64,000 nt of DNA. Source: Aquabacterium sp. OR-4. GTDB taxonomy: Bacteria; Pseudomonadota; Gammaproteobacteria; Burkholderiales; Burkholderiaceae_C. Location of the stretch: NCBI RefSeq assembly GCF_025290835.2, contig NZ_JAOCQD020000002.1, forward strand, positions 496,001 through 560,000, in the 5' to 3' direction. Below the pieces are notes generated by a model, which was not told the origin of the DNA, ran no database searches, and saw only the letters and a program-made list of their open reading frames with translations. Below are positions 33,373 through 59,936 of the stretch, piece after piece (within the stretch, counting starts at the first letter, position 1; every line of letters starts with the position of its first letter). A program made the position numbers and the translations under genes.

Positions 33373-34359
33373 TCAGGCGGAAGGGGATGGCGCGGCGCCG
33401 TCGAACACGCGGCTGGCGCGGATGTCGGCCGCGCTGAGCGTGCTCAGCGCGTCGCGGTCGAGCACGCGTTCGGTGTCGGCAAACAGGCGCGAGGCCTGGC
33501 GCAGGCGCGCCCGGTCGAGCGCATTGCGCACGCTGCGGGCATTGGCAAAGTGCGGCTGCGTGATGCGGCGCGCGATGTACTCGGCAAAGGCCGTGGCCGC
33601 GGCGTCGTCAAAACGGTAGTTCTGCGCCTGCAGCAGGCGCAGCGCAATCTGCAGCAGCTCGGGCGGGCTGTAGTCGGGAAAGTCGAGGTGGTGCGCAATG
33701 CGCGAGCGCAGGCCCGGATTGCTGTGGAAGAAGCTGTCCATGCGGTCGCCATAGCCGGCCAGGATCACCACCAGGTCGTCGCGCTGGTTCTCCATGGTCT
33801 GCAACAGGATCTCGATGGCCTCCTGGCCGTAGTCGCGCTCGTTCTCGGGCCGGTACAGGGTGTAGGCCTCGTCGATGAACAGCACGCCGCCCATGGCCTT
33901 CTTGAGCACCTCGCGGGTCTTGGGCCCGGTGTGGCCGATGTAGCTGCCCACCAGGTCGTCGCGGGTCACGGCCACCAGGTGGTCGCGCCGCACATAGCCC
34001 AGGCGGTGCAGCAGCGTGGCCATGCGCAGCGCCACGGTGGTCTTGCCGGTGCCGGGCCGGCCGGTGAAGGCCATGTGCAGCGTGGGACTGGTGGTGGTCA
34101 GCCCCTGGCCCAGGCGCAAGCGGTCGATCACCAGCAGCGCGGCGATGTCGCGGATGCGGGCCTTCACCGGCGCCAGGCCGACCAGCGCCTGGTCCAGCTC
34201 GTCCAGCACGGTCTGCACCTGGCTGCCGGCCAGCACCTCGGCCACGGTGCGCGGGGCCTGCGCGGCGGGGCCGGCTGACGCCGCGGTGTCTGCCGGACCG
34301 GCAGTTGCAGGCGCGGCCGCCGCGGTGCTGCCCGGAATCGAATACAGCGGTGCGCCCAT
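33373..34359 (-). CDS. cbbX: Red-type RuBisCO activase CbbX (AAA+)
   Basis: 328 aa hexameric ATPase that remodels inhibited form IC/ID RuBisCO by threading the CbbL C-terminus. Walker A GRPGTGKT at 100-107; pore loop [11 protein letters not shown] around 138-148, with Y140-I-G; Walker B VLFIDEAY near 159-166; then sensor [11 protein letters not shown]. The N-terminus is ~35 residues of Ala/Pro-rich linker before the conserved part. It is directly downstream of cbbS, in keeping with form IC loci. Confidence 0.96.
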
Positions 34360-34424: not shown

Positions 34425-34868
34425 TCAGGCGCCGGTATAGCGCTCGGCCTCGGGCCGGTCGGTGGCGTACGAGTGCACCGTGGTGCGCATCATCCGGCCG
34501 GCCACCTCCTGCCGCGCCAGGCCGAAGCCGGGCTCCACCGGCGGGCGGTTGACGATGAAGCTCATCGTGATCGACTCGACGCCGCGGGTCGAGTCGAAGG
34601 CCATCAGGCGGATGTAGTGGCGAGGAAACGCGGCCCGGCAGGCATTGGTCTCCTGCAGCACGCCGGCGGCGTCGGCCAGGTCGAACATGGGCATGCCGTA
34701 CATCTCCCAGTACGTGTTGCGGGGATGCGGGTCGTCGGTGTATTCCACGCTCCAGGCGTAGCCCTTGTTCAGCCCGTACTGCACCTGGGCCGCGATCTCG
34801 GCATCGGTGAGCTCGGGCAGAAAGCTGAACTGGCCCTGGGTGATGCGGCCGGTGGGGTTGGTCATCAT
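34425..34868 (-). CDS. cbbS: RuBisCO small subunit (form IC)
   Basis: 147 aa (146 if the second ATG is used; the gene begins MMTN). Conserved segments: [55 protein letters not shown], then [17 protein letters not shown] and the C-terminal extension typical of red-type small subunits that forms the central beta-barrel ([21 protein letters not shown]). An AAGGAG ribosome site precedes the start. It is separated from cbbL by 382 bp, far more than usual. Confidence 0.97.
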
Positions 34869-35250
34869 GGTCGGGTTCTCCTTGTGGGGTGTTCGTTAAC
34901 GTTGCTTTGCGCTGCGTTGCGCTGCTTGCGTGCTGAGGTCAGTTCAAGGCTCAGGCGGCTGGGGTGGCTTGCGCCGCTCATGTCCTCCGCCGCCGGCCTC
35001 TCGGCCGGCGGCTCCCCCTTGACTTCGCTCTGCAAGCCACCCCAACCACCTGAGCCCGCACCATCTGCGCATGCCGAGGGCATGCCACGGTGGTGCCGGA
35101 GCGGGACGGCAGGGGGCTTCCTGCAGCGAAGTCAAGGAGGAGCCGTTGGCCGGAGGCCGGCGGCGGGGGACATGAGCGGAAGGGAGCCCCCTGGCGGCCC
35201 GCTCAAGCGCAGGTCAGTGCAAGCAGACAGCCCATCTCAATGCAAGCAAC
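34869..35250 (-). other. Structured 382-bp cbbL-cbbS intercistronic region
   Basis: No gene is visible here. The stretch holds several inverted repeats. One pairs 34975-35034 with 35122-35178 (about 57 bp, high identity). A second pairs 34949-34974 with 35031-35056 (26 bp, three mismatches). A GCCGGCC..GGCCGGC palindrome is at about 34990-35012 and a small hairpin is at 35069-35085. The first two pairings share bases and so are mutually exclusive. The element could stabilise or partly terminate the cbbL message, or be an inserted repetitive element. Confidence 0.8.
34949..35178. repeat. Nested inverted-repeat element between cbbL and cbbS
   Basis: The left arm starts CGCTCATGTCCTCCGCCGCC (34975) and ends in TTGACTTCGCTCTGCA (35034). 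The right arm reads TGCAGCGAAGTCAAGGAGG (35122) to GGACATGAGCG (35178), its reverse complement with a few changes. The spacer has GCATGCC-GAG-GGCATGC within an outer GCACCA/TGGTGC stem (35058-35063 with 35091-35096). No second copy was noticed in this window. Confidence 0.85.
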
Positions 35251-36789
<1,539 letters not shown>

Positions 36790-36880: not shown

Positions 36881-37813
36881 ATGAACATCACCTTCCGCCA
36901 ATTGCGCGTGTTTGCCGAGGTGGCCCGCAGCGGTAGCGTGCAGCGCGCAGCCGAGGCGCTGCACCTCACGCCGCCGGCGGTGTCGATGGCGGTCAAGGAG
37001 GTCGAGGGCCAGGTCGGCCTGCCGCTGTTCGACCGCGGCAGCCGCAAGCTGGTGCTGTCCACCGCCGGCGAGTACTTCCTGGTGTACGCCCGCCGCCTGC
37101 TGGCCACGCTGAAGGAGGCCGAGGACGCGATGGCGCGCTTCACGCGCATCGAGACCGGTCTGCTCACCGTGGGCATGGTCAGCTCGGCCAAGTACTTTCT
37201 GCCGGCGCTGCTGGCCGAGTTCCACCGCGAGCATCCGGCGGTGGAGGTGCGGCTCAAGCTGGGCAACCGCGAGCAGCTGGCCGCGATGATGGCCGCCAAC
37301 GAGGTCGATCTGGCCATCATGGGCCGCCCGCCCAAGGAGTTTCCGAACCGCGCCGAGCCCTTTGCGATGCACCCGCATGTGCTGATCACCGCGCCCGAGC
37401 ACCCCTTCACCGCGCTCGAGACCGTGCCCGCCGCCGCGCTGGCGCGCGAGCCCTTCATCGTGCGCGAGGCCGGCTCGGGCACCCGCGCGGCGCTGGAGGA
37501 GTTTCTCGACAGCCACCACCTGAAGCCCATGGTGGTGATGGAGATCGATTCCACCGAGGCCATCAAGCAGGCGGTGATGGCCGGCCTGGGCGTGGCCCTG
37601 GTCTCGCTGCACACCATCGGCCTGGAATGGCGCAACGGCCTGCTGGCCGCGCCGGCGGTCGAGGGCCTGCCGCTGATGCGCCGCTGGCATGTGGTGAACA
37701 CCGCCGCCAAGCTGCTGTCGCCGGCCGCCGAGGCGCTGCGTTATTTCGTGCTCGAACACGGCGAAGCCCGCCTGGCTGCGATGTTCGGCGACGACGTGCC
37801 GCAGCCGCTGTGA
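36881..37813 (+). CDS. cbbR: LysR-type regulator CbbR
   Basis: 310 aa. The N-terminal winged helix MNITFRQLRVFAEVARSGS with SVQRAAEALHLTPPAVSMAVKEVEGQVG is of the LysR family; the effector domain has GLLTVGMVSSAKYFLPALL, GNREQLAAMM and REAGSGTRAALEEF. CbbR activates the divergent cbb operon in response to metabolites such as RuBP or NADPH (family knowledge). The 133-bp gap to cbbL is the usual arrangement. Downstream, a DUF3422 gene follows on the same strand. Confidence 0.94.
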   Translation: MNITFRQLRVFAEVARSGSVQRAAEALHLTPPAVSMAVKEVEGQVGLPLFDRGSRKLVLSTAGEYFLVYARRLLATLKEAEDAMARFTRIETGLLTVGMVSSAKYFLPALLAEFHREHPAVEVRLKLGNREQLAAMMAANEVDLAIMGRPPKEFPNRAEPFAMHPHVLITAPEHPFTALETVPAAALAREPFIVREAGSGTRAALEEFLDSHHLKPMVVMEIDSTEAIKQAVMAGLGVALVSLHTIGLEWRNGLLAAPAVEGLPLMRRWHVVNTAAKLLSPAAEALRYFVLEHGEARLAAMFGDDVPQPL

Positions 37814-59735: not shown

Positions 59736-59764
59736 GGCAGGTCACTGCCGTCTCGGGACAAGGG

Positions 59765-59911
59765 CGTCGGGTGCCGGGCTGACGTAAGTAAAGGAGGAGG
59801 GCCGCAGGCCCGGGGGAGCGAACCCGGACGCAAACAGTCCAGTGGACTGTTTGCGCCTGGTGAGCGCCAGAGCGCTTGCGCTCTGGCATGGAGTCAGCCC
59901 GGTACCCGACG
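59765..59911. repeat. Nested inverted repeats between mog and cysE
   Basis: Outer arms CGTCGGGTGCCGGGCTGAC (59765-59783) and GTCAGCCCGGTACCCGACG (59893-59911) pair with one mismatch. Inside are a 12-bp perfect palindrome CGCAAACAGTCC/GGACTGTTTGCG (59829-59855) and GCCAGAGCG/CGCTCTGGC (59866-59887). No gene is in this 201-bp gap. Confidence 0.8.
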
Positions 59912-59936
59912 GCCTTGGCCTCGCGCCATCGGCGCC

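Follow-up and report, generated by a model that had tools for sequence, protein, structure and literature searches.

REPs, in the part of PMC3733652 available to us, are repeats of 20-40 bp with GTAG or CGTC ends, of which the GTAG families accompany RAYT genes; their dimers are inverted, include heterodimers, have spacers that are sometimes structured, and lie between convergent or unidirectional genes near 3′ ends (PMC3733652, same part). The sections of that source at hand also describe the TIR repeats of TIRtrons, some of which are self-complementary and dimeric and which share the motif GGGGWSAS (PMC3733652). MITEs such as Correia/NEMIS and ERIC are, in the portion of PMC10969869 used here, non-coding, mostly intergenic elements with terminal inverted repeats, and RNase III or RNase E can cleave transcripts that bear Correia or ERIC elements (PMC10969869, same portion). 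In Bordetella and Comamonadaceae, of the order Burkholderiales, the accessible part of PMC3110155 reports BRE, a GC-rich intergenic repeat of ~90 bp that forms tandem arrays (VNTR), is sometimes found inside coding sequences and is commonest in a Polaromonas.

The locus compared here with these systems lies in Aquabacterium sp. OR-4, within a stretch of 64,000 nucleotides (contig NZ_JAOCQD020000002.1, positions 496,001 to 560,000) that is called the window below and whose numbering is used throughout. In the window, the RuBisCO genes cbbL and cbbS are separated by 382 bp, and the genes of the locus are placed as follows:

34425-34868, minus strand: cbbS, RuBisCO small subunit gene (open reading frame; relatives align along its length)
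35251-36747, minus strand: cbbL, RuBisCO large subunit gene (open reading frame; relatives show 85-94% identity)
33373-34359, minus strand, among the cbb genes: open reading frame, presumably a cbbX-like gene
36881-37813, plus strand: open reading frame that we take to be a cbbR-like gene

A preliminary description of this DNA had stated that cbbL and cbbS normally lie tens of bases apart, and a survey of relatives agrees with it. The survey comprised 92 loci, namely the best 80 cbbL loci from the genome collection and 12 own-genus loci, with some genomes represented twice. The gap was measurable at 89 of them, the window included (L111, L114 and L150 were left out), and had a median length of 22 bp, with 78 gaps of 46 bp or less and 11 of 84 bp or more. 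Most relatives have gaps of 12-46 bp without the element described below, and in the own genus all ten other genomes with a cbbS match (L141-L149, L151) have gaps of 13-28 bp that hold no unit of it. Other long gaps without the unit were seen at L074 (258 bp), L093 (164 bp), L072 (103 bp) and L099 (111 bp), that of L093 containing different short inverted repeats.

A repeat search of the gap in the window found inverted arms at 34974-35000/35153-35179 (27 nt, 96%) and at 35002-35029/35125-35152 (28 nt, 89%), two adjoining pairs that make up the imperfect inverted repeat of ~57 bp noted previously, and a pair at 34948-34972/35032-35056 (25 nt, 92%), which is the overlapping repeat that had been given as 26 bp; both repeats are real. 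A fourth pair, at 35099-35127/35176-35204 (29 nt, 83%), is absent from the preliminary description and forms the outer stem of the unit named B below. The predicted fold of the 382-nt gap on the plus strand had z = -13.7, none of 100 dinucleotide shuffles being as good, and chance or a plain GC-rich hairpin was rejected on this value and on the covariation across units. Neither an intrinsic terminator nor a sigma-70-type promoter was found in 34800-35320. A search of Rfam 15 gave only a tRNA at the gathering threshold in the window and no match at E<=0.1 in loci L015, L033 and L153; matches of the gap to miRNA precursors were weak, far below gathering, and were taken as artefacts of the long hairpins.

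The inverted repeats of the gap proved to be two inverted copies, A and B, of one dispersed hairpin unit of ~110-120 nt, a few members of which are longer through inserts. The unit consists of a covarying outer stem of ~25 bp (~25-28 bp), a core that is rich in purines and conserved, and an apical hairpin that varies, and other places in the own genome show the same order of outer arm, conserved stretch, small apical hairpin, second conserved stretch and closing arm. The features in the window are listed below; scores are those in the own genome with R1, the first covariance model of the unit (R2 being a wider model), and the core and hairpin coordinates of units A and B were read off the sequence.

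34901-35250: probable whole element, ~350 bp, ends tentative; outer inverted repeats, unit A, spacer and unit B
34941-35063, minus strand (the purine strand, which is also the cbb mRNA strand): unit A, 104.4 bits, E 5.8e-21
34948-34972: unit A outer stem, arm 1, pairs with 35032-35056 (92% complementary)
35032-35056: unit A outer stem, arm 2, pairs with 34948-34972
34977-35028, minus strand: unit A core and apical hairpin from the unit alignment; core 35028-35012, hairpin 35011-34990, core 34989-34977
35064-35091: inter-unit spacer, belonging to a small inverted repeat around GCATGCC...GGCATGC, a hairpin in the predicted fold
35092-35211, plus strand (the purine strand): unit B, 85 bits, E 2.8e-16
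35099-35127: unit B outer stem, arm 1, pairs with 35176-35204 (83% complementary)
35176-35204: unit B outer stem, arm 2, pairs with 35099-35127
35126-35176, plus strand: unit B core and apical hairpin from the unit alignment; core 35126-35142, hairpin 35143-35163, core 35164-35176
59749-59927, minus strand: further unit of the family, 65.5 bits, E 1.5e-11, whose core contains an inserted second hairpin structure

The cbb mRNA thus carries the pyrimidine strand of unit B. The extent of ~34901-35250 is probable by likeness to whole-pair copies in two relatives, with ends that stay tentative, as the outer repeats of the window copy (GTTGCTT...GC...TGCTTGC at both ends) are weak and 40 of 1000 shuffles score as high. 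The 32 bp left outside this extent are an ordinary gap length and contain AAGGAG. By eye, a 13-nt direct repeat flanks the unit pair in the window. A second hairpin structure of ~60-70 nt was observed at the same place in the core, beside CATG, in three units (59749-59927 of the window, L031 1501-1691 and L238), and is a repeat nested in a repeat.

A DNA search of the own genome returned five further partial matches at four places, and R1 returned 23 rows at E<=0.01, which are 17 places, six of them listed on both strands. R1 matched 21 of 60 genomes, the own included. With R2, matches at E<=1e-6 were found in 116 of 250 genomes of the bacterial family, again counting the own, and in 70 of its 126 genera, in nine of 200 genomes of the order (four of the own family and five from two other families) and in three of 232 genomes of the class, one of which (G473) lies outside the own family; since these three scans scored 14-17 candidates per genome, the copy numbers from them are lower bounds. 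In the distant units examined, the core is nearly unchanged and the stems are different. Twelve of the 16 genomes behind the named loci matched, with 30 matches in Rubrivivax pictus W35, 25 in R. gelatinosus IM 151, 20 in Methylibium sp. Root1272, 17 in Ideonella alba, 11 in a Hydrogenophaga and 10 or fewer in seven others, and the genomes of Polaromonas, Variovorax, Azohydromonas and Derxia gummosa among the 16 gave no unit match. Viral contigs held no exact match to ATGTCCCCCGN{6,36}CTCCTCCTTTACTT, and a search of plasmids with window positions 34901-35250 found none. In draft relatives, many matches are found no more than about 200 bases from the end of a contig (e.g., G008:C4:18-131 and G012:C80:2-115); the repeat seems to break short-read assemblies, and draft copy numbers may be too low. 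In R. gelatinosus IM 151 (G698:C89:15021-16113 and C9:64275-64788), whole pairs occur as a tandem of three that repeats every 414 bases, and three units in a single orientation are spaced 201 bases apart. The earlier suggestion that the gap might hold a captured repetitive element is supported by the copies in the own genome and the family and by the unit-free gaps of the same genus, and the dispersal in related genomes that had been proposed as a check on it is found.

Taken together, we consider it likely that cbbL and cbbS are separated by a single copy of a dispersed, non-coding palindromic repeat, made of two inverted units and probably outer repeats over ~350 bp, which has settled in the gap. 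Its appearance is that of a settled repeat and not of a purpose-built RuBisCO switch.

The pairing within the unit was assessed in alignments. In a first alignment of seven units, 17 of 33 predicted pairs had at least one sequence changed on both sides with the pair kept. Among 62 units from the 43 loci searched, 91.1% of 1940 cells were standard pairs and 462 cells were changed on both sides, and the covariation score was 0.571 as against 0.138 in shuffles and 0.055-0.098 when the partners were shifted by 1-3 columns; because the units had been aligned by fitting to the covariance model, these values lean towards structure. By column counts of aligned units, the purine-strand core reads RAGUMAAGGAGGAG - hairpin - CGGGGGACAYGRR (also written RAGUMAAGGAGGAG / CGGGGGACAYG). 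It contains, on the purine strand and well away from start codons, AAAGGAGG, which we take to be the complement of the 16S anti-Shine-Dalgarno sequence and which would pair with it; this run is not strictly kept, its fourth-last position being changed from A to G in 9 of the 62 units.

The mismatches are unevenly divided between the strands. Counted on the pyrimidine strand of 120 distinct units, A-C mismatches outnumber G-U by 141 to 20 and C-U outnumber G-A by 190 to 2, and 80 units have more A-C than G-U as against six with the reverse. The asymmetry was repeated in the 56 distinct units outside the 62-unit alignment (A-C 59 versus G-U 9; C-U 106 versus G-A 0), where, as in the whole set, the counts are not independent events, units of the same genome being related and a few of the 56 being near-copies of the first set (e.g., L056 and L037). 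On the purine strand, A-C and C-U become G-U and G-A, which are tolerated in folded RNA and in folded single-stranded DNA, and the fold of the purine strand therefore seems to matter. Two pairs of core positions also covary. On the purine strand of the 62 units, the first is A-U in 32 and G-C in 29, with one exception, and the second is A-G in 48 and G-A in nine (A-A in three, U-U in one and one gap); in the other set of 56 units the counts are A-U 45, G-C 10 and C-G 1 for the first and A-G 44, G-A 10 and A-A 1 for the second. We take the asymmetry and the core covariation as evidence for a folded single strand, RNA or DNA, with a partly non-canonical core. At apparently identical sites in two genomes of one genus (L162/L177 and L164/L157), four unit comparisons gave 4, 0, 2 and 6 two-sided changes, 3, 1, 4 and 2 one-sided changes to G-U or A-C, and 1, 0, 3 and 1 other changes, which suggests that pairing has been kept over time at these apparently shared sites and that more than parasitic decay is at work.

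Stem arms could also be kept alike in the absence of functional selection, if hairpin-templated correction (template switching) copied one arm onto the other and the core were conserved by recent descent only. The 462 two-sided changes as against few one-sided ones in the 62 units, and stem sequences that vary freely, are in keeping with such copying, but it predicts neither the strand asymmetry of 141:20 and 190:2, nor the A-G/G-A covariation, nor a core held in common with a distant family, and we regard it as improbable.

We then considered where the units lie among genes. The 77 sites from 75 loci, with exact duplicates dropped, comprise 43 pairs in +- order, 33 single units and one -+ pair, so that 43 of the 44 two-unit sites have the +- order, most with spacers of 24-65 nt. 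Genes were called by a small codon-usage script, not taken from annotation, and 13 of the 77 sites, at edges, were left unclassified. The 64 sites with called genes on both sides, some of which are the same site in related genomes, divide into 25 convergent, 36 co-directional and three divergent, and none is inside a called gene. Control gaps (n=153, 58 of them from the window) are 12% convergent, 72% co-directional and 16% divergent by count, and 8, 54 and 38%, respectively, by length; against these controls convergent sites are in excess (p 2e-8 by count, 7e-12 by length) and divergent sites are short (p 4e-3 by count, 4e-10 by length). The sites lie mostly after stop codons and rarely between divergent genes. 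Among seven single units between co-directional genes, the sense strand is the pyrimidine strand in four and the purine strand in three, which shows no preference, though the units are few. As a separate observation, at L178 1272-3431 (G078:C3) near-identical copies of one unit, within an apparent pcc-type carboxylase operon, flank two genes that by eye resemble HipB and HipA, as if this gene pair had been captured by unit-unit recombination.

These data bear on a reading in which the unit is a structured RNA element, the purine strand working as RNA in 3′ regions and the spread of copies being secondary; the partly non-canonical core would then bind a protein or the ribosome or serve as a processing signal. 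The one-sided tolerance of G-U and G-A, the A-U/G-C and A-G/G-A covariation inside the core, a core nearly unchanged in a distant family where the stems differ, the siting after stop codons and the presence of AAAGGAGG in the core all speak for it. However, folded single-stranded DNA tolerates G-U and G-A as well, the few single units favour neither strand as sense, the Shine-Dalgarno-like run varies in 9 of 62 units, and there is no Rfam match, so that we hold this reading to be possible but doubtful. The same doubt attaches to its fuller form, in which the unit would represent an undescribed class of structured nucleic acids: hairpins of ~110 nt, built around a conserved and partly non-canonical core of purines, which would act as RNA folded on one strand in 3′ gene regions of dozens of genera. 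Often present as inverted pairs, so that transcripts from either side carry one functional copy, such elements would have entered the RuBisCO operon on several occasions.

It had also been proposed in the preliminary description that two mutually exclusive folds of the gap set the cbbL:cbbS message ratio. The 57-bp repeat is the core of unit A against that of the inverted unit B, and the 26-bp repeat is the outer stem of unit A itself, so that the long A:B hairpin and its exclusive rival follow from the presence of inverted copies of one core, and any inverted pair of such units would show this overlap. Folds predicted for the cbb mRNA strand gave -232.6 kcal/mol for the long A:B fold versus -187.9 kcal/mol for local folds with pairs at most 125 nt apart; the free-energy comparison that had been called for leaves both folds possible, with the long one lower on paper, but the pairing of A with B in the outer stems is not maintained. 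Across 43 inverted pairs, Watson-Crick pairing within units is 88% in outer stems and 91% in apical stems, whereas the outer stems of A and B are 51.8% identical in the same pair versus 51.6% in different pairs (equalled or exceeded in 96 of 200 shuffles). In the apical hairpins, 65% of the letters of A and B agree within a pair versus 55% between pairs (0 of 200 shuffles), and in the window 17 of 18 apical letters and 21 of 48 outer-stem letters agree, which points to a weak remaining tie between A and B in the apical hairpins. What evolution maintains, as judged from these comparisons, is the hairpin inside each unit and not the long A:B hairpin. Since the outer-stem identity of A and B is no higher than that of unrelated pairs, a two-state switch is not supported.

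The occupancy of the gap in relatives was examined as well. The unit pair is in the cbbL-cbbS gap at the window, L070 (Methylibium sp. BC.012), L082 (Ideonella oryzae) and L102 (a groundwater Burkholderiales genome), and a fifth genome with the pair in this gap, L156 (genome G189), lies outside the 92-locus survey; 85 of the 89 measured gaps have no unit pair. Three of the five unit sites in 91 other cbb loci sit in the cbbL-cbbS gap, an enrichment of p 0.06, and the gap as an insertion hot spot is accordingly suggestive and not significant. In a tree of 84 CbbL+CbbS rows, which is without the row of the window, whose locus in that set includes only part of cbbL, L070, L082 and L102 stand in three places, requiring three changes, as in shuffles; the well-supported branches are compatible with one origin of the three inserts. 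A switch specific to RuBisCO would be in line with the predicted possibility of both folds, the five genomes with the pair in the gap and the three of five cbb sites located there (p 0.06), but the unit is dispersed with the great majority of its copies elsewhere, the A:B outer-stem pairing is not maintained and 85 of 89 gaps are without the pair, and we find such a switch extremely improbable.

If the element is a settled repeat, as we prefer, it would have spread as a small non-autonomous element moved by some enzyme, and its action would resemble that of BIME/REP repeats. The inverted order of the units means that transcription through the element from either side yields a pyrimidine-strand hairpin followed by one purine-strand hairpin, and the cbb mRNA would have the order cbbL, pyrimidine hairpin (B), central hairpin, purine hairpin (A), cbbS. 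Downstream of cbbL, a structure of such stability could protect the cbbL portion against 3′-to-5′ decay; alternatively, the element could be cut in the cbb mRNA, leaving the cbbL and cbbS messages partly independent. Stable REP-type intercistronic hairpins can have a protective effect on the upstream message while reducing the downstream one. This protection, together with the RNase cuts at Correia and ERIC elements, makes a changed cbbL:cbbS message ratio plausible, and by this analogy we tentatively put forward, as a possibility, that the element may alter the ratio as a by-product of its landing site.

The way in which the element spreads was approached through 20 aligned copies from two relatives (G003 and G008). 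Most of them have common ends that reach past the units, and outside these ends the flanks diverge; the shared outer inverted repeats, e.g., GGGCTC...GCGGACAT or CTCGGCCCGTTGCGGAC, are clear by eye, and three G008 copies keep only one unit. As the shared ends lie beyond the units, the spreading entity in these two genomes seems to be the unit pair with its ends and not the lone unit. No target-site duplication was obvious by eye in the 20 copies, and a pattern search of three genomes recognised no gene-sized autonomous parent element.

One candidate mover is a Y1 (RAYT-like) transposase, which would have moved the unit as folded single-stranded DNA, as with REP elements. Strand-specific folding would be expected of such a substrate, and the inverted dimers and their siting match those of REP dimers in the available part of PMC3733652. 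However, Y1_Tnp was found in 84 of 116 genomes with units versus 86 of the 134 that lack them (odds ratio 1.47, p 0.18), no Y1_Tnp reached E<=1e-5 in 32 of the unit-bearing genomes, a search of 30 Y1 loci for the unit gave only one chance-level match (E 0.92), and at three loci the Y1 genes are flanked by AATGGGGTCAGA-like or GGGGTCAGATT-like repeats that do not resemble the unit. With no association between Y1 genes and units, this mover was rejected, and we regard the unit as very unlikely to be a Y1 substrate. The Y1_Tnp loci L201, L209 and L210 are flanked by GGGGTCAGA-type inverted repeats, which fit the description of TIRtrons in the part of PMC3733652 at hand.

As an inserted repeat, the element explains an odd gap in a carbon-fixation operon. 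It also brings out a defined family of repeats that 116 of the 250 genomes of the bacterial family contain and whose working strand can be read from the mismatch asymmetry. Two questions thereby become testable, namely whether 3′ repeats of this kind exert their action as RNA or single-stranded DNA, and how repeats without a RAYT are mobilised. Relatives with and without the cbbL-cbbS insert offer a natural experiment on the effect of a hairpin in an operon on two subunits that are needed in equal numbers.

A literature search of open-licence PMC papers did not find the unit family named, which is not proof that it is undescribed, and among the matches listed for five words of the unit core in PMC full text the papers were on other subjects by title. 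The comparison with known systems, taken as they stand in the parts of PMC3733652, PMC10969869 and PMC3110155 available to us, gives the following. Like REP, BIME and REPIN sequences, the units are dispersed palindromes that form inverted dimers with a spacer (43 of 77 distinct sites are +- pairs), and 61 of the 64 classified sites lie between convergent or co-directional genes. Unlike REPs of 20-40 bp, the unit has ~110-120 nt with an internal conserved core and covarying stems; neither GTAG nor CGTC is seen by eye as an unpaired end in the aligned units, whose conserved letters are in the internal core, and the Y1 (RAYT) association of GTAG REPs is lacking. The stretch GGGGGACAY in the unit core resembles the GGGGWSAS of TIRtron repeats, but the Y1-gene repeats in this bacterial family have other sequences, and 30 Y1 loci gave no unit beyond one chance-level match. 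With MITEs the element shares its whole size, the lack of coding capacity and a mostly intergenic position; terminal inverted repeats like theirs are clear by eye in copies of two relatives and weak in the window. In contrast to MITEs, the conserved part is inside the unit and not at the ends. A parent insertion sequence was not recognised in the pattern search of three genomes, and a target duplication was not obvious by eye in the 20 copies. The last system to be weighed is BRE, the Betaproteobacteria repeat element (PMC3110155), which, compared by description only, is likewise a GC-rich intergenic repeat of similar size in related bacteria, so that the unit might be one of its members. But BRE is tandem and sometimes intragenic, whereas 43 of 44 two-unit sites here are inverted, none of 64 sites is inside a called gene and no same-orientation neighbours occur among the 77 sites (R. 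gelatinosus does have one-orientation units 201 apart), and BRE is commonest in a Polaromonas, whereas the one Polaromonas genome tested gave no unit match; membership in BRE therefore appears quite unlikely. Within the searches made, we file the element as a new repeat family that would work like a BIME or a MITE, is a member of none of these groups, and is set apart from BRE by description.
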